64,000 nt of DNA from Favolaschia claudopus (lineage: Eukaryota > Basidiomycota > Agaricomycetes > Agaricales > Mycenaceae): assembly GCA_037176885.1 (NCBI GenBank), contig JAWWNJ010000100.1, forward strand, positions 496,001-560,000, written 5' to 3'. Shown here in pieces: positions 1-43,222 of this stretch. A program made the position numbers and the translations under genes. Each line of letters opens with the position of its first letter. The first letter of the stretch is position 1. A model generated the notes under the pieces. It did no database searches. It worked only from the letters and a program-made list of their open reading frames with translations, and was not told where the DNA came from.

Positions 1-481
1 TTCATGCACGGTATTCCCCATATTCAGCCGCAATCCCAGACAAAAGTCCATTCGCTCTAGTCGCAGAGCGGCCAAGTGTCCATCAAGCTCAGATCCTAGC
101 CTCAGAACGGCAGGGTGAATCTTTTCGTTAAAATCTTTTCACAGTATTGGCACAGAATCCCGTACCCATCGCGAACCGCTCGTATATTCATCTAACTTTG
201 GTTACTAATCGCTTTGCCGCCGGTCATGCCCTGCTCAAAACGCGACCATCGAATGATACAACCAACTGCAATGCAAACTCCGGCCCGCCCGCCCTTCATT
301 CCTCGCATACATACATCATCCCCAACGAAGAAAGCACACTGCTGACTCGGAATCGCACGCCGCAGTGTAAAGACACAAAGTCCCGCTCACCAGAATCCCA
401 CTCTCACTCATCTACGCAAAATCCAAAGTAAACCTCACAAACTTCGGGGGAAAAAAAGCACTACACACCAGGCTCCATACT
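1..481. other. Left edge, no gene recognised
   Basis: I see no protein family, B box or terminal repeat here. An A7 run at 451-457 reads as T7 on the minus strand, 25 nt beyond the 3' end of the first tRNA-like unit, and fits a Pol III terminator. Confidence 0.5.
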
Positions 482-574
482 CGGGTTAGTGGGAATCGAA
501 CCCATTTGTTTAGCCAATATTCCGGGAGCACAACACATAATTGTCTGCTGACCGTCCACCAGAACTATACCCCG
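482..574 (-). ncRNA. tRNA-like unit A
   Basis: Acceptor-like stem CGGGGTA/TAACCCG (6 of 7 pairs), spacer TA, D-like arm GTTC-TGGT-GGAC, central stem TCAGC/GCTAA (one mismatch) closing a loop of over 25 nt, and T loop TTCGATT. T7 lies 25 nt downstream on the minus strand (451-457). No U33 or anticodon can be assigned. Confidence 0.45.
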
Positions 575-809
575 TCGAATACAATGATTCCGGTGCGTAG
601 TTTCATCCAACTCACTTTGATTTTATATGACCGCAAAGTTCAGACCACCCTTCCTCGCATCGCAGAACCTTCACATCCACGGAGAAAAAAAATCCCAGGT
701 GTGTAACACAAACTTCCGCTCATCCCAATCTTACCCGTTCACGCAAAAAAACGAGACAAACTCCAAGCTTTCGCAGAAGAACAAAAATTGACATGCCATC
801 CCAGATCGA

Positions 810-896
810 TCAGGTGAGCAGGAATCGAACCCATTCTTCATTTAGCCAATGATGGAAGACATTTGTCTGCTAACCGTCCACCAGGACTACACCCCA
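810..896 (-). ncRNA. tRNA-like unit B
   Basis: Close relative of unit A. D-like arm GTCC-TGGT-GGAC, central stem TTAGC/GCTAA around a 22-nt loop, T loop TTCGATT, acceptor-like stem TGGGGTG/CACCTGA (6 of 7, one G-U). T5 at 783-787 is 22 nt downstream. Confidence 0.45.
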
Positions 897-1123
897 TTGA
901 ATACAACGATTTCGGTGCATAGCGACACCCAAATTGCTCTGCGGACTCTGACTACTCGTCCAGAATCATTCACGCTTTGTAACCTGCTCCTCAGGCCCCA
1001 CCTTTCGTGACGCGCGCGAAAATTCAAGTTGGCCCAATTCGGTCGTGATGATGCGCTCGAATACAGAGGCAAAACAGCACTAGCTCAGCTTCGCAGAGCA
1101 AAATTCATATTTCTATTGCAAAT

Positions 1124-1219
1124 TCGGATGAGTGGGAATCAAACCCACATTCATTTAGCTGACGAACCAACTGGGATTCATTGCGAATCGTGGCTAACGT
1201 CCACGAGGACCACACCCGA
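1124..1219 (-). ncRNA. tRNA-like unit C
   Basis: Acceptor-like stem TCGGGTG/CATCCGA (7 pairs, one G-U), D-like arm GTCC-TCGT-GGAC, central stem TTAGC/GCTAA with a long loop, and a perfect T stem GTGGG/CCCAC around TTTGATT. One extra T sits between T stem and acceptor strand. A T4 run lies at about 1100-1103. Confidence 0.45.
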
Positions 1220-1466
1220 TTGCTTGGCTGACCGTAACAGCTTATGACCATGCAACCAACGCTGAATTATTAACACAGAATCACTCTCGAAATTCCAACC
1301 CAAAAAATTAGGTTTAACCATTTTCCCAGTACTTACTAGTTCAACATTAATCCATTTCGCACTCATCCTGATTAATAAGGCCTCAGTCCCATTGGGACAA
1401 AATCCGATTCCGAATCGGTTCAAATACAACAACTAACAGCGCAAAAAACTGTCTGCAAGACGTTGA

Positions 1467-1550
1467 CACAGGTGTGGGGAATCGAACCCCAGCTTGCAGT
1501 AACCTTCAGGGCAATATCCATAAGAGTTACCACAGTGCACCTCACACCCC
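1467..1550 (-). ncRNA. tRNA-like unit D
   Basis: Perfect T stem TGGGG/CCCCA around TTCGATT; central stem GTAAC/GTTAC closing a 22-nt loop; A-box-like GTGCACTGTGGTAAC. The acceptor-like pairing is ambiguous: GGGTGT/ACACCT competes with a register starting nearer 1544. T6 at 1443-1448 is 19 nt downstream. Confidence 0.45.
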
Positions 1551-1727
1551 ACCCGTTTTCATGTAAGTTCAGTCTCTTTGGTTGCATAGATGTACTGTAC
1601 TTGACCGAAGCAAAACCAACATCAGTTGGAAATGTTGAGCGACAATCATGCCTTGAAGTGATCAAAATTCAACCGTGAGAATGTTGGATCAACCAAAAAG
1701 TCAATTTCTTCATTTTGCCATATGCAT

Positions 1728-1825
1728 TCGGGCACTGGGAATTGAACCCAACTTATTTTCGGCCTTCAGCTTCAACGGGTCTGTGCAGAGCTCCACCCTT
1801 CGCATGCTTCACAGGCTACACCCGT
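1728..1825 (-). ncRNA. tRNA-like unit E
   Basis: Acceptor-like stem ACGGGTG/TGCCCGA (6 of 7, two G-U), then TAGCC, and T loop TTCAATT between TTGGG and CCCAG. The middle part is long and its stem is unclear. T5 at 1695-1699. Confidence 0.35.
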
Positions 1826-2047
1826 CGGGTGAAGATTTGTTCCAACTCGTCCAAAGAAACCCCAGCCTTGGGCCTTGGCTCTTCGACGTCGATTTGGATC
1901 GTGTTCATAAATGAAGGTCGTAGCTGAGGTCTTTGGCTGGATAGCTGAGTCCCAGAATGTATTATAGACCAGCGTATATGAATTCGATTGAAAGAAAGAA
2001 CGAACACTGAGACAAGAAAAAATTGATATGCTACGAGCCCACCTCAT

Positions 2048-2129
2048 TCGGGTGTTGGGAATCGAACCCAAATTGCAGTAAACAGTCAAGACAGCAAGGC
2101 AAATGTATGTTGCCTGGGTCTACACCCGA
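2048..2129 (-). ncRNA. tRNA-like unit F
   Basis: Perfect acceptor-like stem TCGGGTG/CACCCGA and perfect T stem TTGGG/CCCAA around TTCGATT. A hairpin GGCAA-CATACAT-TTGCC lies in the D/anticodon region, and TTGC/GCAA closes a 17-nt loop. T6 at 2017-2022 is 25 nt downstream. Confidence 0.45.
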
Positions 2130-2403
2130 GTAGTTAGTTGTAAATTCTATCGCAGATATGATTCAGATTCAGAGGCTGAATCAGATTTACTTAAATCACT
2201 TACGCGTAAATTCACAAGTGGCTTGAGGCCAACGCATTTGAAATGTCAAAGGCAAAAACTGCCCTTGAAGCCATGAAGCCCAACTCAACTTGAACATAAA
2301 ACCAACACGTATCAATACGACTCGGACATTTTGAACTGGACTAAGGTCGGCATTGACAAAAATAATAATAAAAGATTGGAAAACCAGCGGTGTGCCATGC
2401 TCC

Positions 2404-2500
2404 GATCGCGGGCAGCAGGGGTCGAACCTGAATTTGAGACGGTTGGGGCTCCAGAAAAAGCCTGAGAGCCGTGAACTCCAGCCAACCAAGTTGGTTGCAT
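2404..2500 (-). ncRNA. Degenerate tRNA-like unit G
   Basis: Clear T arm (CAGG-TTCGACC-CCTG), but the acceptor-like strands no longer pair. Related to unit I through the shared CTCCGATC sequence beside the T arm and a shared AGAGCCGT segment. Probably a decayed copy. Confidence 0.25.
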
Positions 2501-2706
2501 GACGCAACTAAATAAGTAAGTATCAAGGCGGAGAATCTAGAGGTCAAGCGCCCAAATCCTTTCATCAATCAATTCTGAAGCTCGTTGGCTTGCACAGAGC
2601 CGCATTTGTTGAATTTCGAGCGAGCGAAGCGCTTGACTCTCCTTTAAATGAACGCGAGTCCAAAGAAGTAAAGCGAAACCGTCAAAAAATCGTTTCATTT
2701 TCTCAT

Positions 2707-2804
2707 TCGAGTGCCAGGAGTCGAACCTGGATGTGTGCATCATAAATCAAGGTTATACAGAACAATCGAATTGAGAGACACAACCCACCGAGGGCTACAC
2801 CCGA
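2707..2804 (-). ncRNA. tRNA-like unit H
   Basis: Acceptor-like stem TCGGGTG/CACTCGA (7 pairs, one G-U), spacer TA, D-like arm GCCC-TCGGT-GGGT, central stem TGTGT/ACACA around a loop of about 40 nt, and perfect T stem CCAGG/CCTGG around TTCGACT. T6 at 2684-2689 is 18 nt downstream. CAA in the loop could be read as a Leu anticodon, but nothing else resembles tRNA-Leu. Confidence 0.5.
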
Positions 2805-3133
2805 GTTAAACGGTCTTTCGAGCCGGCTGGTGTGTAACTGTGTTGGAATATTTTGATCTGCTTCACCACCTGTCTTTGGATGGGAATGACCTTAAGTGAA
2901 TTTACGGTAATTCAGTAAATATTCCTCAGCTCCGAGTACCAGACCGCCTACGTTGAAGAATATGAGCTCCTACTAGGATTGATAAAAGCATTGAATGTGT
3001 CGCCAGGGCGTGGAAATTCGGAAAATAAAACCAGCAAGACGCGGACAGACAGACTGCTGAACGTTCTATGTGAATTGGACTCTGGTCAGCAAAAGAAAAC
3101 TGAAAAATGAATCGTAGAAGACGTATGCTCCGA

Positions 3134-3238
3134 TCTCGGAGAGCAGGAGTCGAACCTGGATTTGCGACGGTTATCAATGTTTGAGGAGTCAATCACACAT
3201 CGGAGACCCAAGAGCCGTTGTCTGCGATGGACTACACA
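3134..3238 (-). ncRNA. Degenerate tRNA-like unit I
   Basis: T arm CCAGG-TTCGACT-CCTGC is intact, and TGTAGTCCATCGCAGAC resembles the A-box side, but acceptor pairing is lost. Partner of unit G. Confidence 0.25.
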
Positions 3239-3475
3239 CATCTGAATTGGTCGCAGCTACACAAGTATTAAAGTGAAGGATTAAATTTAAATTCGAGGCC
3301 AACCACACAAGTTACAACTCTGTTTCTCAATGGCCGATGATCAAGTTCATTGTGCAGAGCCGCATTTGTTTACTAATTTGGGACTGGCGAGGCGTTCAAC
3401 AAGCGTTGACTCTTGACGAGAGGGAGTAGGCCAAAGAGTGAAACCGTCAAAAAAGGGCGAGTACTGAGAAGAATT

Positions 3476-3574
3476 TCGAGTGCCAGGAATTGAACCTGGA
3501 TAAGTGTCTGGTATAGATCGATTTTGAGCAGAACAAATTATTGAAAGACACTACCCACCGAGGGATACACCCGA
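3476..3574 (-). ncRNA. tRNA-like unit J
   Basis: Acceptor-like stem TCGGGTG/CACTCGA; central stem AGTGTCT/AGACACT, seven perfect pairs whose sequence differs from every other unit except K; perfect T stem CCAGG/CCTGG around TTCAATT. The D-like arm TCCC-TCGGT-GGGT keeps three pairs. T6 at 3449-3454 is 21 nt downstream. Confidence 0.5.
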
Positions 3575-3829
3575 GTGGAACTGTTTAATTGTCGGCCGAG
3601 TTAGTTCCATCCAAATTTAAACAAGTAAGGTGGAGAATTGGACTAGTACTTGAGGCGAAGTACGACATTCCTTCTGTCGATTCCGTAGTTCATTATGCAG
3701 AGCCGCATTTGGTCGATGTCAGACGAGTGAAGCGTTCAAGATACGAGATAAGGATTAGCCTCGTAGAGGCGAGGAGGTAGGTCGAAGAGTGAAACCTCAA
3801 AAAATTTGCTTTCTCGCCGACTTTTCAGT

Positions 3830-4718
3830 TCAAGTGCCAGGAGTCGACTCACCTGGATCAATGTCCGCTAAAATTCACACATTCATTTTATCGAATGCAG
3901 AGACACTGCCCACTGATATGGCGGTCAATGTGTCGTTTTAATCAAATCGGTGGAAAATGTGTATTTAGTGAGATTTGGTGCTTGAAATGTACAGAGTCAA
4001 GAAAAAGACTAGGAAATCCGTGGTCTATGTTTCTTTGAGTCAAAGTACAAAACTAAGGAGCATGAGGGTAAAAACTTTTTGCTTTCAAATGTGAAAAGTT
4101 TGCGGTGGGCTGCCCAAGGGTGGCTGTGCATCTGATGATGAATTGATCCATCCTTCGGCATGGGAACTTCCACAAAGCTTTGCTCTACACCCGTTGTTGA
4201 CATATTTTCAGTTGTTGCCTGCTGGCTCATACTAGTTGTGAGTACTCATGAGAGGCCCACATTTTTAGCTAAGCTGGGCTAGAATGACGCTCTAAAGTCT
4301 TGATTTGAACTATGTTCTGCGTGCTTGCCTGCTGCTTTGAGCTAACCATCACCTCTTTCTACAAAACAGCCGAGAACAGAGCTATTCTATGTACTCCTAC
4401 CTTTGGAGAGCTATAGTAGTAATCTACGCTGCCCGGTCTTCGTTGGTTTCAACAGGTTGAATATCTCGATGTCTCGGCCATCACCTCGCATCAATCACAC
4501 AGCCACCGGTCTTCGGACCGAGACAAACATTTTACACCTACAGTGTCCTACACCCAAAAACTTTCTATTCTACATGAGAGAAAGTTTTTACACTCGGAAA
4601 GTAAAGTTCAGTTTTGAAGCTTCTTGCACTTTTCTTCTACTTTGACTCAAAATGGAGTTTTTATACGCATTTGATTAAAACGACAGATTGACCGCCATAC
4701 ACTGAGGGCTACACTCGA
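3830..4718 (-). ncRNA. tRNA-like unit K, split by an insertion
   Basis: The 3' part (3830-3916) and 5' part (4706-4718, plus one copy of the target duplication) flank a 783-bp element. Read across it, the unit has acceptor-like stem TCGAGTG/CACTTGA, D-like arm GCCC-TCAGT-GGGC and central stem AGTGTC/GACATT. The acceptor differs from unit H by paired changes. The T loop has gained about three bases. T6 at 3799-3804. Confidence 0.4.
3917..4699. mobile_element. 783-bp inverted-repeat element (MITE-like)
   Basis: Both ends read TATGGCGGTCAAT inward, continue as TGTCGTTTTAATCAAAT after one mismatch, and share further patches (TTGAGTCAAAGTA, GTAAAAACTTT). The element is flanked by CACTGA at 3911-3916 and 4700-4705, a 6-bp target duplication, and splits tRNA-like unit K. 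No transposase is seen inside, so it is probably non-autonomous. Superfamily not assigned. Confidence 0.75.
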
Positions 4719-5291
4719 GTTGAATTGCTGCTCGAGCCGGCTGGTGTGTTGAAGTACTTTGTTTAATTGTGCTGTAATATTGAACCGAAGCTCCCAATCA
4801 TCAGTGGAATACTTAATTTTGGGTAGGCAAACAACTTTCCTGCTCGCCTAAACCGCCTACGTTTTGGGATATCCCAAGTTGAAGCTAAGTTGAAGGCTTC
4901 CCTTCGCGGTCCAAACCAAGTACTTCAAGTTGGAAAGTTGGATCAGTAACCGGGAACGTGAGGCTTTGATTCGCAGAAAAGAGTAAACGCTCGGGTCGAG
5001 TGTAGGAATGTGGACTCCAGGTAGTGCAGAGAATGACGACGCATGCAGACGTGCGATATGTGAACGTCGAGTGGTGAAATGAGGCGTATGAGGTGAGCTG
5101 TGGCTTTAACCACGAATTGGCGAATCTCATGCAAATAGGCTTCACTCAAACCGTTGATGCTTCGAGGAAGGAAAATTGCGTCGTCGAAGCTTTGACGATC
5201 TAGTTTCAATGCGGATTCAAGAAGGAGGGGTATTTATTCGTCTCTGATTTTCCAAGCCAGTCAACATCTACAATACCTGTCTTTCATCTCA
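4719..5291. other. Intergenic
   Basis: The left part repeats the 5' flank of tRNA-like unit H (CGAGCCGGCTGGTGTG). The rest is the 3' flank of the pectin lyase gene. Minus-strand reading frames of about 88 codons at 4885-5209 match no family I recognise and are not called. Confidence 0.5.
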
Positions 5292-24300: not shown

Positions 24301-27300
24301 TCCGTCAATCTGGTCGTGTCCCGATCTCGTTTTAGACAGCTGTGATGAAGGTACACATGAACTTTGATCCTCGATAGCGAAAGCGATTCGAGGCAATTCA
24401 GCGATCGCGCGGAAATCAAGCGAATCAAGGCAGAGTCGAGTCGAGGCGAATGAAGTGGCAGTGGCCAGTGGCTGGCAGAGGTGCTGTTTGAAGTGAACAG
24501 GTGATTGGTAATTACACCAGATTGCACCCCAGATTCAGTTTCCAGGACGAAAAGACTCATGAAGGCACGAAGAAGGCGCCAAGAAGAATTCAAAGGCGGG
24601 AGCCTCGAGGAAAGACGCCAAGACTCGAGCTGGTCCGCGGGAGAAAGGCCCGAGACCTGACCAAGTCCCGCCCAACCCCCGCCCTAAATTATCTTGGTAG
24701 ATTTAAATTGAGTGAGACCGACTTGTGCCAGGCCTGCCAGCCTCTTCCTTCACATCCGACTCATGGGATCGATCTCTGCCCCATCCCTCGCCGTCCTAGC
24801 CCCTGGCACCATGGGCGCCGCCATCGCCGCACGTCTCTCAGTCTCCGGGGCAGGCACCATCCTCACCAACCTCGAAGGCCGCTCCGAATCCACCATCTGC
24901 CGCGCCCACTCCTCCAACATGCAGCACGCCTCCTACGAAGACATTGTCCAACGTGCCTCATACATATTCAGCATCGTCCCACCTTCAGAGGCTCTGAATC
25001 TTGCCGAGACAATCGTCTCCACCCATAAAGTCTCAGGCAGACAGCGTCCGCTCGTCTTCATCGACTGTAATGCTGTGAACCCCGAATCCATGAAGCGCAT
25101 GCAGACCCTTTTTGACGGGACCGGCATCACTCTCCTCGACGGCGTCATCATGGGTACCCTGCCCACGGACAGCTTCAATCCCGGCATATACGTCTCCGCC
25201 GACCCGAAAGACACTGCTGCCCTAGATGACTTCACCCAAATGGCGAATGGTCTTGGGTTGAATGTGATCTCGCTCAAAGGCGAAGGGGCGGGGATTGGGG
25301 ATGCGAGTGCTGTGAAGATGGTGCATTCCGTGGGTATTTCCGTCCGTCCGCAATCTCCCGGCGCGAGGTTCCTGACAAGACAGCAGGGCATCGTCAAAGG
25401 CACAGTCGGCCTCTTCATGATCATGATCCTAGGTTTGCGTCGCGCTAAATAACTTCTTTTCCCGAGATCGACATGTGTTCTGTCTGTTTCAGCTGCAAAC
25501 GCTGCCTCGCCTTCGACCGCTAAAGGCCTTGCGCACGCTTTGAATCTCTCGCACCCAACGCTCGCTGACAGTGAGTAATCACCCCCGCCAACCCATTCGT
25601 TTTCTCTCCTTAGTCCTATTGACGCTCGTATAGTCCTTATCCGCCTCGTCCCTATCTGTATACCCAAAGCGTATCGTTTTGTCTTCGAGATGGGCGAAAT
25701 GAGCAGCTTCACGGGCGGTGATGGCGCAGAGGTATTCGACACATTGTCGAAGACCTATGGGCGGGTGGCGACCGATGATCGAGGTGACGTTGCTGACACC
25801 TTACTCAGGTTTGTCGAGCAGGCGAAGGAGGTCCGCGAAAGAAGCCATACGGTTTGATACCTTCGCGTCGATCACAGATATCTGTCGTCTTTGCAGAGTC
25901 TATAAAGGTGTTTCTGAATATAATGGAGCAAGGAGCACAAGAGTAATGCTCTTACCGATACAGCAGAAGACCGTATGAGGCGTTGCGCAGCGACGTAGAA
26001 GAATGGAAGAGGTGTACCGCACCTGTCCATAACGGCATCGTGTATCTTGTGCAAGCAAGGCGGGATGTGGCAGGGCGACCGGATGAATCCAGTCGAGTGC
26101 AGAAGGAGCAATGTACGAGCTATAACGCTCAAAAAGCCCAACGAGGCGGAGCCTCGAGACAAATTCATCTCCTCGACCCCAAACTCGCTACGAATACCCC
26201 TGTTCCCTTCTTCTTCGACGCCTATTAGAGTACGCGGATGAGCAGGGGTTTGCGAATCGCTACGCGTGAATTGAAGAGGCGGGGACGGCACAACCTCAAC
26301 GCATAGGGACACTCAGGCGCAAACGCGGCCACGAACTTGGGGTGGTGGGAAGTAGTTCTAGTACGACAAGTTGGCGCAAAGCCAAACTGCTTGTTAGTAC
26401 ACGCGGACCCGGGCTTGCGTTGCTGTTTCCTCGAATGTACAGAAAGTAACCGCCACTCCCAGCATCGAGGTGAAGGGCAGCCGTCTCCTTAATGCTCAAA
26501 CGAAAGATTTCGAAGGGGCAACGCGTATGCGCCTCCTTGAGTCAATGTAGGCGCTGATTTCAGTCGACGACTCGAAGATGACAAAAGTGGCGCGGACGTC
26601 GAGTGAGAACGAGTGACGGGGAACGGCGCTGCGAAGTGGAGGTGGACGCGAGAGGCGTCAAGAGGCAACACTCTCGGATTACTGCGCAACGGTAGGGCAT
26701 TCCGCTAGTATCATACTGGCACGGAGCAAACGTCGCGTTCGTGCCGAAGTACTTGCAGTGGGTGCATACTTTTGCGAAGAAATCACCAGCTGCCTCGACG
26801 GAAATGGTGGCTCGTCACTGCAGAGGAGGTCGATTGCCAGTGGAAGGGGGGTAAAGCGGCGAGGTACAGACTGCTTGATTGAGTAGGACGCGGTGTGCCA
26901 GGACGTAGTTCTTGGGTGAATGAAAAGTCGTGACTGCCTATGATAGTTCTTCAGTGCACTTTTAGACCGACGCAGCGAAGAGTACACACCAGGAGCAACG
27001 ACAAGGCCCTCCTTCGCCGCTATTCAGAAAACCGAAATCTCAGTCACGGTTACCCTCGTCCCCCCTGTCCCAACACAATCGCCGTCCGCCACTCTCCCGG
27101 TCTCCGTCATCAATCCTGCCGGTTCGAGACATTACTCGAGAACGGAATCGACCGACAGTATACACCATCCCGCGCCACAAGGGAAAATGGCGAAGGTTGG
27201 GCGAGCACACACGGAGCATCGAAAGGTGGAAGTGATTGTCGGTGCGAAATACGCCCGACGAGTCCGTCAATCCCTCGAAGAAAGACGCGTCAGAGATTGA

Positions 27301-27520: not shown

Positions 27521-27924
27521 AACTTCATCGAAGGCGTCCGTCAATCTGCTGTGATTTTCGATTTCGAGGCAATTGAGCGACTCGGATCGCGTGAACTTGA
27601 AGATCGAGCGAATCTCAGTACTAACCGTTGACTGCAATAGATCCCGTGAAACAGGTGATTCCACCCCAGATTCCTTTCCCAAGACGAGTAGATTCTCGAG
27701 CCGCATATGTACCCGCCGATCTTTTACGACCGAAACATGGACCAGGAAGAACCCAACAAGGTGGGAGGAAAGGGAGGAGCTAAAGAGGCCGAAAACCCAC
27801 CGGTCCGAAAAGGAAAATCGGCCGAAAACCCGAGGCCACACCAAATCTCCCAGCGAGTCGGCGACATATTATGATATAACATGAGCGGGTGATTTATGCC
27901 AGCCTCTTCCTTCACATCCGACCA
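25858..27924. other. Decayed flank between the duplicated genes
   Basis: Short open frames on both strands, none with recognisable motifs. The right part (26780-27060) matches 30190-30475 in the second copy. If a gene existed here it is broken or belongs to a family I cannot see. Confidence 0.4.
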
Positions 27925-30720
27925 ATGGGGTCAATCTCTACCCCCACCCTCGCAGTCCTAGTCCCCGGCGCCATGGGAGCCGCCATCGCCGCACGTCTCT
28001 CAGTCTCCGGGGCAGGCACCATCCTCACCAACCTCGACGGCCGCTCCGAGTCCACTATCCACCGCGCACAGACCTCCAACATGCAGCACGGCTCCTACGA
28101 AGACATCGTCCAACGGGCCTCATACATATTCAGCATCGTCCCGCCTCAAGAGGCTCTGAATCTTGCCGAAACGATCGTCTCCGCATACAAATCCTCAGGC
28201 AGCCAGCGCCCGCTCGTGTTCATCGACTGCAATGCCGTCAACCCCGAATCCATGAAGGGCATGCAAGCCCTGTTCGACGGAATTGGAATCACTCTCCTCG
28301 ACGGCGTCATCATCGGTACCCCGCCCTCGGACAGCTTCAATCCTGGCATATACGTCTCCGCCGACCCGAAAGACATTGCTGCCCTGGACGACTTCACCCG
28401 AATGGCCAGCGGTCTTGGATTGAACGTGATACCGCTCAAAGGCGAAGGGGCGGGGATTGGAGACGCCAGTGCCGTGAAGATGGCGCATTCCGTGAGCATT
28501 GCATTCGCAGCATTCGCAATCTTCCGCGCACCTCCTGACGAGACAGCAGGGCATCGTTAAGGGCACGATCGGCCTCTTCACCACCATGATCCTAGGTTTG
28601 CGTTGCGCGAAATAACTTGTTTTGCCGGCATCGTCGTGTAATCTGTCTGTCTCAGCTGCAAACGCGGCCTCGCCTTCGACCGCTGAAGGCCTTGCGCACG
28701 CTTTAAATCTCTCCCAGCCAACGCTCGCCGATCGTGAGCACTCACTTCCTTCATTCGCTCTCTCACTGACTCCCCTTCCAGTGCTCATTCGTTTCGTCCC
28801 TATGTCCATACCCAAAGCGTATCGGTTTGTCTCCGAGATGGACGAAGTTAGCAGCTTCACGGGCGGTGATGGCGCAGAAATCTTCGATAGATTGTCGAAG
28901 ATCTTTGGGCGGGTGGCGAACGATGATCGAGGAGACATTGCTGACACCTTACTCAAGTTTGTCGAGCAGGCGAAGGAGGTACGCGGAAGAAGCGATGCTG
29001 TTTGATACACTTCTTTGCGTCGCACAGATATATAGCTGCCCGAGTCGTCTCTGAAGCATAGAAGTAAGAAAGATCTTCTTAGGGGTGTTTGCCAATATAT
29101 TCGACGTTGATAGAGTATGGAGAACCAGGTCGAGCACCGGCTGAGATAGCAGGAAGACCGAGACGCAGCAAGCGCCACGGCAGAGGAAAGTAGAGGCGTA
29201 CGCATATCCGGGTCTAGATGCGGGCTGGCAGGGGAGCTATGGCGTCTGCGGAGTGGTAGCGTGGATAAGCATGAGCCCAGCGACGCTTGCTATGCTCCAG
29301 GTGCAGGATGGACGGGGAAGCAAACACCATACGAGTTTCTGGGCGACCCTCGAAGACGAAGACGGCGCGATCCAGACGCACGAGGACACCCGTTCGCAAA
29401 CGCATACGCGGGCTTGGGTGGGGTGATGTGAGAAAGTGAAATGTCGAAGAGGCCGATCGAACCTGAAGCGGGCTGTCCATGCGCAGCGGCCAGCTCCCGC
29501 CTACAGCGACCGGACGTAGATCCAGTGGAATATGAGGATGAATTTCCTCTTGCAATTATGCGCCGTCGCGCGCGACGATGAGACGGAATGCCGGGGAAGG
29601 TACGTGGACGTAGACGTAGAGGCGGAGGACGGTCCAAGAGGCGAGACTCGAATTGTAGTGATAGGGCAGCCGCATTCCCCTAGTATCATATCACCCAGAG
29701 TAGGCGCGTCCACGTCGTGCTTGGAGGGCTCAGCTCGTGGCGAGCAAGGCGCTGATGAACACCAGCTCGCCAGCACAAGGACACCTCAGGGTGCGGATAT
29801 GTGCGTTGGCGACAATGACCGGGCTAGCGGCTTGGCTGTCGGATTCGTCCGTTGCGGCATCTACGTGATGGATGGCAAGGCGGTCATGGTGCGCTCTGGC
29901 GAATAGGTCACGGTGCACAGCGCGCTCCATGCACCCCTCCTGAATGAGAGAAGTCGTGCCTGTATACCGATGAAGAACACTTGAGCGGAGCTTTGGGCTA
30001 ACATAGCAAAGGCACTCACCGAAAGTCAGTGACGAGATGCGTCAGCGCCCTGCAGTATACGCCAGGAAGACGAATCTTCGACACGATGACCGTCGTCCGT
30101 ACGATCCCAATGAAAACCGCGAGGGCTACTCTCTCCGCCTTTCTTCATCAATTCTGTCGTTCCAATGAACTTTGCGCCGGGCGCGTACATCTGTGCGAAA
30201 GAATCGCCACCTGCGTCGACGGAAACGCTGGCTCATGACTGCAGCACTGACATGGAGGTAGATGGGCGGTCAAGCGGCGAGGCACAGAGTGCGCTATTGA
30301 AGGAAAAGGCGCGGTGCGCCAGTATGGTCCTTCTTGATTGAACGAAAAGTCGTGACTGCGCATAGGAAAGCTCCTCGGTGAAGGTTCAGACTGAAACAGC
30401 AAAAAGGGCGCACCAGAAGCAACCACGAGGCTCTCCCTCGTTATCCAAAGACCGAAATCCTCGACCCAATGGCCCTCATCCCACGACATCGCGACGCCGC
30501 ACGCCGCACTCCCGGGATCCTTATTCGACGATTCCGGTTCGATCTACCGCCAAAGGAACTGCCGTTTGTTCTCTTCACAGACGAAAATGGCGTTGGTCGG
30601 GTAGGAAAAGAGGAAGGCGGTCACAAGAAATTGGTGTTGGAGAATGCATCTCAAGCGGCAACCTTGCAGGTGGAGGCGTTCGAGAGCCAGTATGTATGCA
30701 AGCTGGCTAGTTTATCCCAG
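27530..30720. repeat. Tandem duplication, unit 2
   Basis: Second diverged copy of the segment at 24.3-27.5 kb. The match runs from the AGGCGTCCGTCAATCTG block upstream of the gene through the gene to the AAGTCGTGACTGCGCAT block near 30350. Boundaries are by eye. Confidence 0.7.
27925..29005 (+). CDS. 6-phosphogluconate dehydrogenase-like protein, copy 2
   Basis: Tandem paralogue of the gene at 24.76 kb, with the same four-exon structure and identical exon lengths (27925-28491, 28550-28595, 28656-28733, 28782-29005; 304 aa). Glycine motif VPGAMGAAIAARL, FIDCNAVNPESM and GEGAGIGDASAVKMAHSG are kept. Differences from copy 1 are mostly conservative (LEG/LDG, GTLPTDS/GTPPSDS, ICIPKAY/MSIPKAY), suggesting both copies were selected. 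Intron 1 uses a clean GTGAGC donor here, supporting the homologous intron in copy 1. Substrate unknown. Confidence 0.85.
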
Positions 30721-37990: not shown

Positions 37991-38203
37991 TATCAAACAA
38001 ATATATATTTGGTCTGGTACGAAGAGAGAACCGTTAGGTTAACACATAGACAAGAGAAATATACGAGTCATACCTGGTACGAAGAGAGAACCGTTAGGGG
38101 TCCATCTCTTCGTCCAGGATCAATATGTTACAGAGTGATCGAGTAAGTAGATTGATTAGGAAATGTTTAGGTCAGCGACCAAGCACTGCGTCAATGTCCA
38201 ACA
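37991..38203 (-). repeat. 3' LTR of the copia element
   Basis: 213 bp, identical by eye to the copy at 43374-43586. Contains an internal direct repeat of CTGGTACGAAGAGAGAACCG about 70 bp apart. Confidence 0.95.
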
Positions 38204-40229
38204 CCCCCCCTTGACGCACGTCGAGGTTGAGCATCTTGACCCAGCGGGTATGAATAGTACGATGTAGGGGTTTAGTGAAAAGGTCGGCGACGTTGCTGTT
38301 ACCGGCAACGTGCATGACATCGATGAGGCGCTTCAAGACGCAGTCACGGATGAAATGCTCGCGAATAGCAATGTGTTTCATTTTGGAGTGAGCCTGTGGG
38401 TCGTGGGTGCAGGCGACTGTTCCTTGATTGTCGCAGAACATTGTCGTAGGTTGATCCTGAGGAAACCCGAGTTCCGCGAAGATGTTGCGGAACCAGAGGA
38501 CGTCTTTGGCGCAATGAGTGGTTGCGAGATATTCAGCCTCGCAAGATGAGAGCGCAACGACGGCTTGCTGCTTGGAGCTCCATGACAAGGGCGAGTTCCC
38601 CATGAGAATCACGAATCCCGAAACGGATTTACGCGTGTCGCCCATTCCCCAGTCGGAGTCACTGAGCGCAGTGAGGATTGGTGTTCCTGAGTCTCGACCT
38701 CCAAGCGTGATGCCGTGTGCTGTGGTTCCGCGAAGATAACGCAGTAGGTGCTTGGCAGCGGTGATGTGGGCTGGACCATAGCTTGCCATGAAACGAGCGA
38801 GTTCACGTACAGCGTACGCGATGTCGGGACGCGTGCAGGTCGCCAAGTACATGCATTTCCCAACGATCGCGGTGTATGGGTAGTCCTTGGCCTTTGCGAT
38901 GTCTTCGGCGGCAGCAGGCGTCAAGCGGGCGCTTGGGTCCATTGGGGTCAGCACCGTGTTGCTCTTGTCAAACCCAAAGTCGCGGAGAATGGACTCCGTG
39001 TACGACTTCTGGTGAAGGCGAATGGTGCGTTGTTCCCTGTCGCGTTCGATGGTACAGCCAAGATGTAGCTGCGGCTCGCCGTTATCGGTGATTTCGAATT
39101 GAGCGGCCAGTGCTGCAACCACGGCGTCGGATTCAGCTTGCGAAGATGAGGCTATCAGCATGTCGTCGACGCTTGTAGTGATGATGGAGTACTCGTTACC
39201 GAGTCTCCGTTGGTATACACTCCAGTCGGACTCGATTCGTTTAAATCCGATGGTTTCGAGTCGCGAATTTAGCTCCAGGTACCACTGCCGGCCTGCCTGC
39301 TTGAGTCCGTAGAGACCCTTCAGGAGCCTCCAGTAACCCGGTCCCGCAATGGCAGGTTTCCGCATGTAAATCTCCTCCTCGAGGGGACCGTTGAGGAAAG
39401 CGGTTTTGACGTCGACTTGTCGTAGCGTCATGTCTTGGGCAGCTGCGAGTGCGAGTACAAAGCGAATCGATTCCCAGCGAGCGACGGGTGCGAAAGTAAA
39501 GTTGTAATCTTGTCCGGGGATCTGAGTGAAGCCCTTTGCGACGAGTCTGGCTTTGAATCGTGATATCAGCCCATCGCGGTCGCGTTTAATGTGAAGAACC
39601 CATTTAGACGCAACGGCTTTACGGCCAGGTGGTAGATCCTCGACTTCTTCGTAGACGCCCTTCGCCTTCAGCGACTCGAGCTCTTCATGAATGGCGACCA
39701 ACCACTGCGGCCAGTACATAGACGACTCTGCCTCGTGAACAGTCGCTGGGTCTTTAGCGTCTGGGTCATCAATGGGGTCGGAGAGAGCTGCAAAAGCGGT
39801 CTCTGTTTGCTCAAACGCCTGCGCGAGATCCACGAACTCCTCCGCTTCGCATTCAATCTCCAGCTCGTCACCCGACACTAGGACGGACATGAGGTAGTCC
39901 TCAGAGATGAGGAAATCGTTCCCCCCCTCGTCCAGTGTCGCGTGGTCGATGATGTATTTCGCTGGGACTTGGCGAACACGGGGTACACGGCGGTCAGCAA
40001 TTGACCTGTCGTCGAGTTGGGCGTCAGGTTGTCTGTTAATGGACATTAGGCTTCGTTTACAAGCCGTGTTTGCGTTAACGCACGGAGTGACTGCTCGAGG
40101 CTGTATGCTCTGCGAGATCTCGTCTAGAATCCGTTGTACAGCCCTGGTTAAACAGGTTAGATGGACGTTAACATCCAGACGCGTTAACACGTACTCAGGA
40201 GACGCGTCAGCACGCTCCGAGGTTTGCAT
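38172..40229 (-). CDS. Copia reverse transcriptase and RNase H
   Basis: 685 codons from ATG 40229; the same frame continues upstream to the TAA at 40277-40275. RT domain with ASKWVLHIKRDRDG, QVDVKTAFLNGPL, LYGLKQAGRQWY and the active site SVDDML (usual copia YVDDM). RNase H with SDSDWG and SSCEAEYLA, ending near FTKPLH. The stop lies inside the 3' LTR. No internal damage seen. It probably forms one polyprotein with the integrase frame if the 51-nt intron-like segment at 40302-40252 is spliced or the stop is read through. Confidence 0.92.
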   Translation of the reverse strand: MQTSERADASPEYVLTRLDVNVHLTCLTRAVQRILDEISQSIQPRAVTPCVNANTACKRSLMSINRQPDAQLDDRSIADRRVPRVRQVPAKYIIDHATLDEGGNDFLISEDYLMSVLVSGDELEIECEAEEFVDLAQAFEQTETAFAALSDPIDDPDAKDPATVHEAESSMYWPQWLVAIHEELESLKAKGVYEEVEDLPPGRKAVASKWVLHIKRDRDGLISRFKARLVAKGFTQIPGQDYNFTFAPVARWESIRFVLALAAAQDMTLRQVDVKTAFLNGPLEEEIYMRKPAIAGPGYWRLLKGLYGLKQAGRQWYLELNSRLETIGFKRIESDWSVYQRRLGNEYSIITTSVDDMLIASSSQAESDAVVAALAAQFEITDNGEPQLHLGCTIERDREQRTIRLHQKSYTESILRDFGFDKSNTVLTPMDPSARLTPAAAEDIAKAKDYPYTAIVGKCMYLATCTRPDIAYAVRELARFMASYGPAHITAAKHLLRYLRGTTAHGITLGGRDSGTPILTALSDSDWGMGDTRKSVSGFVILMGNSPLSWSSKQQAVVALSSCEAEYLATTHCAKDVLWFRNIFAELGFPQDQPTTMFCDNQGTVACTHDPQAHSKMKHIAIREHFIRDCVLKRLIDVMHVAGNSNVADLFTKPLHRTIHTRWVKMLNLDVRQGGVLDIDAVLGR

Positions 40230-40251
40230 TTCAATGTCCTCAGAGGGACGC

Positions 40252-40302
40252 CTGGTTAAACAGGTGAGTACGATTTACGCTATCGTTAACGATAGAACGT
40301 AC
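40252..40302 (-). other. 51-nt intron-like segment between integrase and RT
   Basis: Starts GTACGTTC and ends TTTAACCAG on the minus strand, length 51 (17 codons), and contains the single in-frame TAA (40277-40275). Removing it leaves integrase and RT in one open frame. Splicing is inference; a simple nonsense mutation is the alternative. Confidence 0.4.
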
Positions 40303-41339
40303 GGGTTTCGCTCAATGGCAGGGTTTGGCTCAATGGCCGGGTTTCGCTCAATGGCAGGGTTTGGCTCAATGGCCGGGTTTGGCTCGGTGGCCGGGCGCGC
40401 GGAGGTGGGGCCGACGGGCGCGCGATCTCTGAAATGTTCCTCGAGATCACACGGCACGTCTTCCCATAGAATGTCGGAGAGTGGAGGTGATGGAAGGAAG
40501 TCAGGAAAACCATGGAATTGGACGTCGCGCCGCGAGCGGATAGATCTGGCCTCTGTAAGCCAGATCAAATATCCCTTGGAGTCGCGCGCGTATCCAACAA
40601 AACGGCCTTCTTCCCCTCGCGGTGTCAATTTCGGTTGCTCCGTCGAGTTGGTTTTCCGCGCCGTGACGAGGGCACCAAAGGGGCGCAGGTGCGAGAGGTC
40701 AGGTTTGCGCTTGAACCAGCTCTCGAAAGGTGTCGAGCCGTCCTCGTTTGCTGAATGCGGCACTCGATTCTTAATATGGATCGAGGCTTGGGCGGCAAGC
40801 GGCCAAAACCAGAACGTGAGCGAGGCGTCGACCAGCATCGCCCTGATCATATGCTCAATCGTCTGGTTCAGCCGCTCCGCAACGCCGTTCTGAGGAGACG
40901 CGTCTGGCACCGTTTTCTCGTAGATGATGCCGTTCTCGGTGCAGTAGTCCTTGAATTGACCGTACACGAGTTCAGGCGCATTGTCGATTCGTAGGTAGAC
41001 AATCTTGGCACCCAGGAGATTTTCAGCTGAAGCGCGGAATTCGCGGAAGCACGCGAGGGAGTCGGATTTGGATTTCAGGAAGTAGATTGTAGTGAAACGC
41101 CGAAAATCGTCGGTAAAAGTGATGAAGTGTCTGTAGCCCCCATACCCCAGAGGTAGAGGACCACAGATGTCGGTGTGGATACGAAACAAGACGCGGTCGG
41201 CGCGGTTTAGAGCTTTGTTGGGGAACGGTAGTCGTTTGATATTGGCAAGAGCGCAAATGCGGCAGTTCTTGATGTTGACTGAGTCCACCGGAAAGCCGAG
41301 GGTGGCGCTATTGAGCCCTTTAACGTCTAGATGGCCCAT
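40275..41339 (-). CDS. Copia integrase
   Basis: 354 codons, starting at the ATG overlapping the gag-protease stop (TAATG). The upstream frame HRLMGHLDVKGL and the later CRICALANIKRLPF fit the zinc-binding HHCC region. The catalytic core has IHTDICGPLP (D), LRIDNAPELV (D) and SPQNGVAERLNQTI (E). The C-terminal GKR-like part includes RPFGALV and EGRFVGYARDSKGYL. The end carries five 18-bp tandem repeats (40303-40395) coding E(P/R)NPAI units. The frame is -1 relative to gag-protease. Confidence 0.9.
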   Translation of the reverse strand: MGHLDVKGLNSATLGFPVDSVNIKNCRICALANIKRLPFPNKALNRADRVLFRIHTDICGPLPLGYGGYRHFITFTDDFRRFTTIYFLKSKSDSLACFREFRASAENLLGAKIVYLRIDNAPELVYGQFKDYCTENGIIYEKTVPDASPQNGVAERLNQTIEHMIRAMLVDASLTFWFWPLAAQASIHIKNRVPHSANEDGSTPFESWFKRKPDLSHLRPFGALVTARKTNSTEQPKLTPRGEEGRFVGYARDSKGYLIWLTEARSIRSRRDVQFHGFPDFLPSPPLSDILWEDVPCDLEEHFRDRAPVGPTSARPATEPNPAIEPNPAIERNPAIEPNPAIERNPYVLSLTIA

Positions 41340-43222
41340 TAGACGGTGGTAAAAACCAAGTCCTTGTTGGTATCGGCGTCGGCATCGGGTCCAAGGAGAG
41401 CAAGAACAGAGGGAGTTGTCGCGTTGATGAGGTCGGTAGCCGAAAGCGGAAGCAAATTTGCTTCCGCGGGAGTTCCCACGATCCTCACGCCCATCTTGTA
41501 AAGTCCCCCAACTATCTCCCCAGACGCAAACTCGATACCATCCGCGTTGTAGTAGCGGATCTTGCCCCCCCCAGTTTCAGTCTGGACTCCTTTGACATCC
41601 AACTGCGTGCCGGAGACAAGATTACAGCGTGCGCTCGGTATGTGGAGGACATTGCTGAGGGAAAATTTGGGAGCGCCGTGGTGAGTACCTTCCAAAAGAA
41701 CTTGTCCCTTCCCTAAAGCTTGCGTGGTTAGATTTGTTCCAAATCCATGAACACTCAACGGCTGGCTGAAGGTCTTGTATTCCTTGAAGGACGCTTTGTT
41801 GTTGAAGACATGGCGCGACGCGCCTGTATCGTGGTAGATATTCTCTGTTTGCTCCACCGCCTCTGCGTTCAGCACAACATCCACCGCATTCACCCACACT
41901 TCCTCCATTTCGTCCTCATCTTCTCCGTCTATCTCAAGTCTCCCAACCATGAACACGAAGTTCGCATCTACCGTTTCGTTCCCCAGCGCATCCTGAATAT
42001 CTTCTTCACTGTCTTCTGTGGCATCCACCATCCCAGCAAAACGGTCTCCTGCGCTCTGAAGCGCCTGGCGCCGCCTCTCCGTTACACGCTCGGCCGGCGG
42101 CAGGTGAATGTCCCGCTGTCCTCGGTAGCTATCGGGATACTGACCCGCTTTTCCTCCCCCGTAAGAGAAGCAATCCGCCTTTACATGACCGTATGGTGTC
42201 ATGCAGAAATCGTTGTTGCAGATTATGCGTTCGCGCTGCGGCCTGTTGTCGCGATTATCGCGATTGTCGCGATTGTCGCGATTGTCTCGATTGTCTCGAT
42301 TGTTGGAAGATGCTGAAGTTCGGTGGTCGTAAGGGCCTGCGCGACGGTCGTTCCGTTGGTGGGTACGTTCCATCTTTCTCCCTCCTGGTGTACCGGGCTG
42401 AACGAACGACGCGCTTGCTACAGCATCACCATCGTCGTTGCGTGCTCGAGCCTTCGAAGACGAGGAGGAGGAGGAGGTAGCAGCGGTGAACAGACCTTTG
42501 GAGAACTCCTCCCGTTGGAGGCGAGCAAGCACGAATGCCGATTTCAGTGGTTCTCCTCCCTGTTCGCTCTTCGTCATCTCTTCAAGCAGAATATCGCGGC
42601 AATACTGCCACTTGTCGCTCTGGGACATGTTCGTGATGAGGCACTTCGCAAATTCGTGGTCTGGCAGCATCCCGGCGTCGGCACGACGCAGCCTCTGGTA
42701 CTTCTCCATCATCTCGACCCTCCATGCGACAGGATTGGCGCCACACATAAAAGATGATATGTGGCTCTTGAGGGTAATGGCCATAAGCGCATTTGTAGGT
42801 TCGTACGTCTCCTTGAGAGCTTCCCAAGCATCATGCGCTGACTTGCAATCTTCGACAACGTAGAGCTTCGGTCCAGGGACAGCTTCGACGAGAATAGCGA
42901 GCGCCCTTTTGTCTTGTGCAAGCCACGCCTCTGCGCTCTTCTTCGCAACGTTCACCTCCACCTCGTTACCGCGAGTTGTTATCGTTATTTCATTGCCCTC
43001 GCCGTCAAAGCCAGTGTGAGTCTGACTTTCCACCAGTTTCGGAATAATCGGCGGCTTGTACTCATCGCCCGCAACGTATTTCCAGTACCCCGCAGCGTCG
43101 AGTTTGCGCTTCGCCTTGGATTGGAACTCAGCGTAGTTGTTGCTGCCGTCGCTGTTCTCGACAATAGGGGTGAGTGTAATTCCCCGCCATTCTTTGCCAT
43201 CGCCTGGGTTGACTGACGCCAT
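41339..43222 (-). CDS. Copia gag-protease
   Basis: 627 codons. The gag part starts MASVNPGDGKEWRG and includes a run of NRD repeats (near 42240-42300) and a zinc-knuckle-like CNNDFCMTPYGHVKADC. The protease active site is HDTGASRHV. It ends with TAA at 41341-41339, overlapping the integrase ATG. No internal stops. Expression of integrase and RT needs a -1 shift, reinitiation at TAATG, or another bypass; the sequence near the end reads CTTGGTTTTTACC. Confidence 0.9.
   Translation of the reverse strand: MASVNPGDGKEWRGITLTPIVENSDGSNNYAEFQSKAKRKLDAAGYWKYVAGDEYKPPIIPKLVESQTHTGFDGEGNEITITTRGNEVEVNVAKKSAEAWLAQDKRALAILVEAVPGPKLYVVEDCKSAHDAWEALKETYEPTNALMAITLKSHISSFMCGANPVAWRVEMMEKYQRLRRADAGMLPDHEFAKCLITNMSQSDKWQYCRDILLEEMTKSEQGGEPLKSAFVLARLQREEFSKGLFTAATSSSSSSSKARARNDDGDAVASASFVQPGTPGGRKMERTHQRNDRRAGPYDHRTSASSNNRDNRDNRDNRDNRDNRDNRPQRERIICNNDFCMTPYGHVKADCFSYGGGKAGQYPDSYRGQRDIHLPPAERVTERRRQALQSAGDRFAGMVDATEDSEEDIQDALGNETVDANFVFMVGRLEIDGEDEDEMEEVWVNAVDVVLNAEAVEQTENIYHDTGASRHVFNNKASFKEYKTFSQPLSVHGFGTNLTTQALGKGQVLLEGTHHGAPKFSLSNVLHIPSARCNLVSGTQLDVKGVQTETGGGKIRYYNADGIEFASGEIVGGLYKMGVRIVGTPAEANLLPLSATDLINATTPSVLALLGPDADADTNKDLVFTTV

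Follow-up and report, generated by a model that had tools for sequence, protein, structure and literature searches.

A tandem array of tRNA-like units with Pol III gene signals in the mushroom Favolaschia claudopus

One end of a 64,000-nucleotide stretch of the Favolaschia claudopus genome holds a row of units that resemble transfer RNA (tRNA) genes with an enlarged anticodon arm. Are these units working tRNA genes, relics of such genes, or genes for RNAs that no longer decode? We analyzed this stretch, C100:496001-560000 (contig JAWWNJ010000100.1; hereafter the window), within the genome of 264.6 Mb and 460 contigs. The explanation we prefer, and to which we give an even chance, is that the row consists of RNA polymerase III (Pol III) genes in an old tandem array, derived from an intron-bearing, Glu-like tRNA, that most of its units no longer decode, and that selection still acts on their ends.

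Extent of the array and its Pol III signals

The array occupies positions 480-4719 of the window and comprises 11 units (A-K), all on the minus strand, at a present spacing of 260-430 bp. An earlier note on this DNA had counted about eleven units on one strand, and a B-box scan, together with homology for unit K, bears this out. All 11 units have a T arm with a B box and, 17-28 nt past the acceptor, a T-run. When the whole 64-kb window was scanned on both strands for GGTTCRANTCC with at most one mismatch, 17 matches were found, 10 of which are the T arms of units A-J (minus strand, 502-3496). In each of these 10, a stretch of four T or more begins 17-28 nt beyond the acceptor, and none of the remaining seven has a T-run within 60 nt. 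Unit K, whose B box is lengthened by a 3-nt insertion, was identified by homology. No further unit emerged when the adjoining 20 kb on the left side was scanned for B boxes.

Across the genome (the window and the other loci described below), the first T-run lies 17-32 nt past the acceptor in 24 out of 24 units; the units are mutually related, hence these counts are not independent. In ten spacers taken as a control, 182 of 2127 positions (8.6%) have a T-run at that distance. Ordinary tRNAs of the same genome were sampled as the best-scoring matches (43 rows, with one place, L001 and L045, counted twice). Their first T-run lies within 13 nt in 34 of the 43 rows and at 17-20 nt in seven (Ser/Leu types as read, two of which ARAGORN labels Gly and SeC), and no T-run was seen in the examined stretch for the other two. 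Based on a loose pattern, with the separated 5' part of K out of reach, a GTGTAG-like string that could serve as A box lies upstream in 15 of the 24 units, and three of these 15 have a second such string further upstream. The B box and the downstream T-run that characterize a Pol III type 2 gene are both present.

Copies elsewhere and conservation of the unit ends

A DNA search with window positions 440-3900 found three other places in the genome, C42:1038047-1039955 (74%), C42:1178764-1179195 (80%) and C13:392620-393544 (68-74%). In the corresponding loci, L011 carries copies of units F-K, and L012 and L013 carry copies of A-C; units at these loci are named with the prefixes q, p and r, respectively. 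Such genome searches score the best candidates only, and strongly diverged copies could be missed. The tRNA-like promoter boxes would also suit a short interspersed element (SINE) or another dispersed tRNA-derived repeat, for which the earlier note had looked to hundreds of dispersed copies. Copies were found at four loci: besides the three places returned by the array query, unit H as a DNA query gave four matches, all in arrays, as were 5 of 5 matches of the H-type 5' end pattern and 7 of 8 of the A-type 3' end pattern (none in reversed controls). The A-type 5' pattern with 0-2 mismatches placed six of seven matches in arrays; at three mismatches it gave noise (26 matches, 25 in the reversed control) and was unused. 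The low copy number found in these best-candidate searches contradicts SINE identity and makes a dispersed repeat of any such kind hardly credible.

As a separate observation, a dispersed family sharing TAGTCTAGTGGTTATCAC accounts for 10 of 38 pattern matches (L104, L107, L109, L112, L115, L117, L119 and three more places). Seven copies were read and have a tRNA-like start, then a common body and T-runs, which looks like a tRNA-derived SINE.

Open reading frames (ORFs) for a myosin-like head occur in L003, left of the window, and in L012 and L013, and in L003 a chitin synthase domain follows; no such myosin-head/chitin synthase gene is seen in the 10 kb of L011. Proteins of Marasmius, Mycena, Pisolithus and Boletus are among the best relatives of the chitin synthase next to the array. 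Because the array copies partly adjoin this gene, segmental duplication is a likely route by which they spread. The genes around the array are ordered and oriented differently on C100 and C13. The myosin-head ORFs on C42 and C13 (L012 604-1851 and L013 7314-8561) encode identical proteins (415/415) and match at 0.87 of four-fold sites (177/203), as expected under strong purifying selection after duplication. Within L012 the same B-type T-arm/trailer segment occurs twice, at 3601-3643 and 4769-4811, about 1.17 kb apart, and the outer copy lacks a 5' half.

We compared the 25-nt T-arm/acceptor ends and the 22-nt 5' ends of the units with spacer windows, using 20,000 random sets; spacer windows overlap, so that the resulting fractions are rough. 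In two of three comparisons the ends are better conserved than the spacers. Between F-J and L011, identity is 0.936 for T-arm/acceptor ends, 0.955 for 5' ends (F, H and J only) and 0.73 for spacers (63 and 130 of 20,000 sets, respectively). Between A-C and L013, the values are 0.907, 0.909 and 0.734 (311 and 159 of 20,000). At four-fold sites of the chitin synthase gene, identity is 0.67 (130/195) between C100 and C13 and 0.69 (133/194) between C100 and C42. The central domain appears to be about neutral except in H and J: its identity is 0.59 for F, 0.92 for H and 0.83 for J against L011, 0.62, 0.63 and 0.48 for A, B and C against L013, and 0.73 and 0.50 for B and C against L012.

The spacers themselves are uneven. 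Identity to L011 is mostly 83-100% in the blocks at 3646-3810, 2596-2690 and 2971-3045 and drops as far as 10-13% in blocks next to them. The CAGAGCCGCATTTG motif recurs in the window at 2595, 3355 and 3698.

Pairing, folding and the anticodon loops

In a model-fitted alignment of 14 units, 94.0% of cells pair compared with 80.9% in shuffles, and 15 of 22 pairs have changed on both sides (0/500 shuffles); the count of further pair types was matched by 11/500 shuffles. With 19 units, 91.9% of cells pair compared with 78.2% in shuffles, and 18 of 23 pairs have changed on both sides (0/500 shuffles). When partners were slid by 1-3 columns, pairing fell to only 27-52%. Because fitted alignments lean to structure and the relatedness of the units is still in them, this covariation is support and not proof.

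A covariance model built from five H-type units (R1) recovered nine further units (E from 7e-7 to 0.19) and, of a tenth, just the T arm (E 3.5), and with E up to 10 it matched nothing outside the arrays in 114 kb. A second model, R2, gave matches in arrays only. Since R1 also scores ordinary Gln tRNAs at up to 23 bits and R2 scores Leu tRNAs at up to 25 bits, low scores under these models show tRNA kinship only.

These alignments bear on whether the units may be kept as binding sites for TFIIIC at a chromatin boundary, as A-box/B-box DNA and not for an RNA, much as B-box inverted repeats and clustered tRNA genes serve in fission yeast. The B box is common to all units, including G and I, which have no cloverleaf, and the units are clustered on one strand. 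There is precedent in the S. pombe IR-L element, whose five B boxes add to boundary activity redundantly with Epe1, as described in PMC4502379. The array resembles IR-L/IR-R and the centromeric tRNA boundaries in being a B-box cluster; it differs in that it also keeps terminators and acceptor stems. DNA binding alone would not require terminators or the acceptor and central-stem pairing seen in the fitted alignments. We therefore favour an RNA product over mere TFIIIC sites and regard the boundary explanation as improbable.

To assess the layout of single units, the T arm was held fixed and an acceptor of at least 5/7 pairs, a 2-nt linker, a D-like arm and a central stem were sought in the upstream 95 nt and in 200 dinucleotide shuffles of it. 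Unit K was left out because it is split. Out of 23 units, 11 reach 10/200 or fewer: A, C, D, H, J, q4091, q4453, q5159, p4791, r5004 and r5523. Above this level are B and G (Table 1), p5106 (78), r4691 (43) and r5177 (21), and no such layout was found in the other seven (E, F, I, q4765, q5457, q5810 and p3623). When 18 units were folded without restraint, the cloverleaf was the minimum-energy structure in six (C, H, J, q4091, q4453 and q5159; z from -1.73 to -2.80). Six others adopt other shapes, with z below -2 for D, F and r5004. D loops measure 4-5 nt and the variable region about 3 nt, as read from the alignment. The earlier note had described one layout shared throughout. This holds for the T arm, B box and terminator, which are general, but only 5 of the 10 window units tested have a full cloverleaf that outdoes shuffles, and at best about half of all units possess one.

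Several results weigh against our preferred explanation. Before model fitting, covariation among the five H-type units is weak (27/500 and 39/500 shuffles) and absent among the five A/B-type units (255/500), in four of which neither of the two outer acceptor pairs forms. Array units that score below about 25 bits under the models cannot be told from ordinary Gln or Leu tRNAs. Units A, B, E, G and I fold no better than shuffles, and the fold energy of r5523 is likewise at the shuffle mean (within rounding) or above. In the third conservation comparison, of B and C with L012, identity is 0.84 for the T arm, 0.864 for 5' ends and 0.844 for spacers, with no excess (11,569 and 9437 of 20,000). Unit K is interrupted and its T loop altered, and G and I have no conserved 5' half.

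Much of this would follow if the array were a decaying tRNA pseudogene cluster, formed by local duplication of an intron-bearing tRNA gene and then left to neutral loss, with the likeness among units a trace of common origin. The units that are broken and the third comparison, with its lack of excess conservation, speak for decay. Against it, terminators are kept in all 24 units, the ends are better kept than spacers and four-fold sites in the other two comparisons, and the stems of the fitted alignments still pair despite sequence change. We judge wholesale decay to be rather unlikely.

For unit K itself decay is the probable outcome. The earlier note had placed the array end near 4718. This end is the 5' part of K, separated from its 3' part by a 783-bp insert in the D-like loop. 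The insert has terminal inverted repeats (50-nt arms, 82% complementary) and a flanking duplication, and is probably a non-autonomous terminal-inverted-repeat element. When the flanks are rejoined, K aligns with q4091, with the 3-nt T-loop insertion and several central-loop differences, and is probably dead.

Could some units still decode? The earlier note saw no credible anticodon with U33, which is correct for A, B and C, where position 33 is G or A. It fails for D, H, J and K, in which C32 and U33 directly follow a 5-bp stem. In K the loop after the central stem reads C-U-CUG-C; those of D, H and J are given in Table 1, and in H and J the insert directly follows position 37. Units E, F, G and I have no recognised central stem and hence no loop reading. 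The q4091 loop reads C-U-CUC-C from sequence, and p5106 and r4691 have U at position 33 by the same reading, but their loops are unlike a Glu loop. Unit H contains CTCTCAA, a string also found in the reverse complement of a Neurospora tRNA-Glu primer listed in PMC3547838.

With introns allowed and the default cut-off, ARAGORN assigned Lys(CUU) to D and Glu(CUC) to H, so that 2 of 11 window units, and only these, received ordinary intron-bearing isotypes, the outcome that the earlier note had set against its own proposal. The same settings also called two L011 units, and labels shift with options. At a relaxed level more units were called, but so were four places in the window outside the array. 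A second tRNA-gene search of the window made no call, a metazoan mitochondrial tRNA scan (ARAGORN -mtx) gave nothing in the array, and RF00005 had no match in the window at its gathering score (best 18.4 bits, unit H, cut-off 29). The selenocysteine tRNA and transfer-messenger RNA (tmRNA) models of Rfam were rejected as identities, with sub-threshold scores of 23.4 and 14.9 bits against cut-offs of 47 and 47.

Elsewhere in the genome, an RF00005 search in which the best 63 of 8616 candidates were scored listed at least 58 tRNAs, and many ordinary tRNAs are intron-bearing. The fungal Glu D arm, with 0-1 mismatch, matches 12 places outside the arrays and none within them (pattern matches whose letters were not read); with up to two mismatches there are 29 matches compared with 10 in the reversed control. 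Because these 12 matches lie elsewhere, Glu decoding can probably do without the array, and the idea that it holds the only Glu tRNAs of the genome is not supported. Of two other Glu tRNA patterns searched in the genome, one gave no match and the other a single match with three mismatches (control 2), and what a further Glu-directed pattern matched were Gln tRNAs, Ala tRNAs and a repeat. A D-arm-like string, TGTTTCAGCGGTTAGGAT, is identical on many contigs (34/40 matches), and no Glu loop was found behind it.

Alternatively, H and J, and perhaps D too, may still function as tRNAs with introns (Glu, Glu and Lys) whose D loop is unusually short, the other units being their relics. Like intron-containing nuclear tRNA genes of the Glu/Gln type, the array has the B box and A-box-like string, 7-bp acceptors and 5-bp T stems in H-type units, and an insert after position 37 in H and J; the loops of H and J and the ARAGORN calls for H and D agree with this, as do the many introns among ordinary tRNAs. 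The array units depart from such genes in their 4-5 nt D loop, variable region of about 3 nt, enlarged central arm, lack of U33 in most units and terminators 17-32 nt away, ordinary T-runs lying mostly within 13 nt. The paralog of J has C33 where J has U33, and none of the 12 Glu D-arm matches lies in an array. We see only a slim chance that these units are working tRNAs. The description in the earlier note, of tRNA-derived, Pol III-type and non-decoding units, is supported as to the derivation and the signals, and as to non-decoding for A, B and C. For H, J, D and the interrupted K, its alternative of intron-bearing tRNA relics fits better, a Glu- or Lys-like loop being followed by an insert.

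Table 1 Units of the array and the insert in unit K (window positions; layout, shuffles out of 200 that do as well)
Feature	Position	Strand	Description
Unit A	480..575	-	Ends resembling an acceptor; D-like arm of 4 bp (loop 4 nt); central stem TCAGC; T arm/B box; U33 absent; T7 terminator 451-457; layout 7/200
Unit B	809..897	-	A-type; central stem TTAGC/GCTAA, AGA bulge, inner CAA/TTG; no U33; T5 783-787; layout 23/200
Unit C	1122..1220	-	Cloverleaf is minimum-energy fold (z -1.73); no U33; T4 1100-1103; layout 2/200
Unit D	1467..1557	-	Loop C-U-CUU-A (Lys-like), insert 5 nt by ARAGORN; T6 1443-1448; layout 0/200
Unit E	1726..1826	-	Acceptor pairing, T arm, terminator; D/central layout not recognisable; T5 1695-1699
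Unit F	2046..2130	-	Perfect 7-bp acceptor, T arm; central domain folds differently (z -2.98); T6 2017-2022
Unit G	2405..2500	-	Only T arm and acceptor 3' strand; 5' end undefined; T4 2380-2383; layout 40/200
Unit H	2705..2805	-	Complete cloverleaf; Glu-type loop C-U-CUC-A, followed by an insert that resembles an intron, about 32 nt (32 nt by ARAGORN); T6 2684-2689; layout 1/200
Unit I	3134..3245	-	T arm and acceptor 3' strand; 5' half degenerate, 5' end undefined; T5 3103-3107
Unit J	3474..3575	-	Full cloverleaf (z -2.80); loop C-U-UUC-A (Glu-type), then intron-like insert; T6 3449-3454; layout 0/200
Unit K, 3' part	3828..3916	-	T loop with 3-nt insertion; T6 3799-3804
Unit K, 5' part	4700..4719	-	Acceptor 5' strand and part of D-like arm
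Terminal-inverted-repeat insert, 783 bp	3917..4699	.	Splits unit K within its D-like loop; open stretches reach 99 codons at most; flanking duplication CAGTG/TCAGTG

Away from the array, the minus strand of the window at 38172-43222 carries ORFs of 685, 354 and 627 aa that by eye resemble a Copia-type retrotransposon. Two similar ORFs at 24712-25452 and 27889-28560 suggest, also by eye, a local duplication of a gene like that of an NAD-binding dehydrogenase.

Proposed origin and meaning

The history that we propose would begin with one intron-bearing tRNA gene, probably Glu-like, whose tandem duplication gave the array; segmental duplication would then have taken pieces of it to the three other places. 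Each unit would be read from an internal A-box/B-box promoter and stopped at the T-run, and the product would be an RNA of about 110-150 nt whose ends resemble those of a tRNA and whose anticodon arm is enlarged. We infer Pol III transcription, processing by RNase P and RNase Z and a role for the RNA other than decoding. Decoding would have been lost progressively, until most units no longer decode. Selection would preserve both ends (A box, acceptor, T arm/B box and terminator) and would also maintain the cloverleaf of unit C and of the H-type units, leaving the central arm mostly to drift.

Molecules with a tRNA-like acceptor and T arm and no decoding anticodon include tmRNA and the mascRNA of MALAT1. 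The array differs from these in its eukaryotic nuclear Pol III layout and in belonging to no covariance-model family, the tmRNA score being sub-threshold. In Neurospora, milR-4 comes from a tRNA-linked Pol III precursor of a microRNA-like RNA from which RNase Z releases the small RNA, and the tRNA-derived microRNAs of murine gammaherpesvirus 68 are mentioned in the same paper, PMC3547838. The array units would resemble both in being Pol III transcripts with a tRNA moiety and extra sequence; they differ in that their trailer is just 17-32 nt.

More tentatively, and at well below even chances, the units may belong to a mushroom family of non-decoding Pol III RNAs that is so far undescribed; our search of the literature (open-licence full texts) found no description of such an array. 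Members of this family would share a constant tRNA-like frame of acceptor, short D arm, T arm and terminator, in which a freely varying hairpin replaces the anticodon arm, and tandem multiplication would yield many central hairpins.

If the units are transcribed, the locus would show how a tRNA gene gives rise to a multigene family whose RNAs do not decode. Intermediates would stand side by side, Glu-like in H and J, altered in A-C and broken in G, I and K, and again in segmental duplications of measurable age. One could then test which parts of a tRNA gene remain under selection after the loss of decoding.

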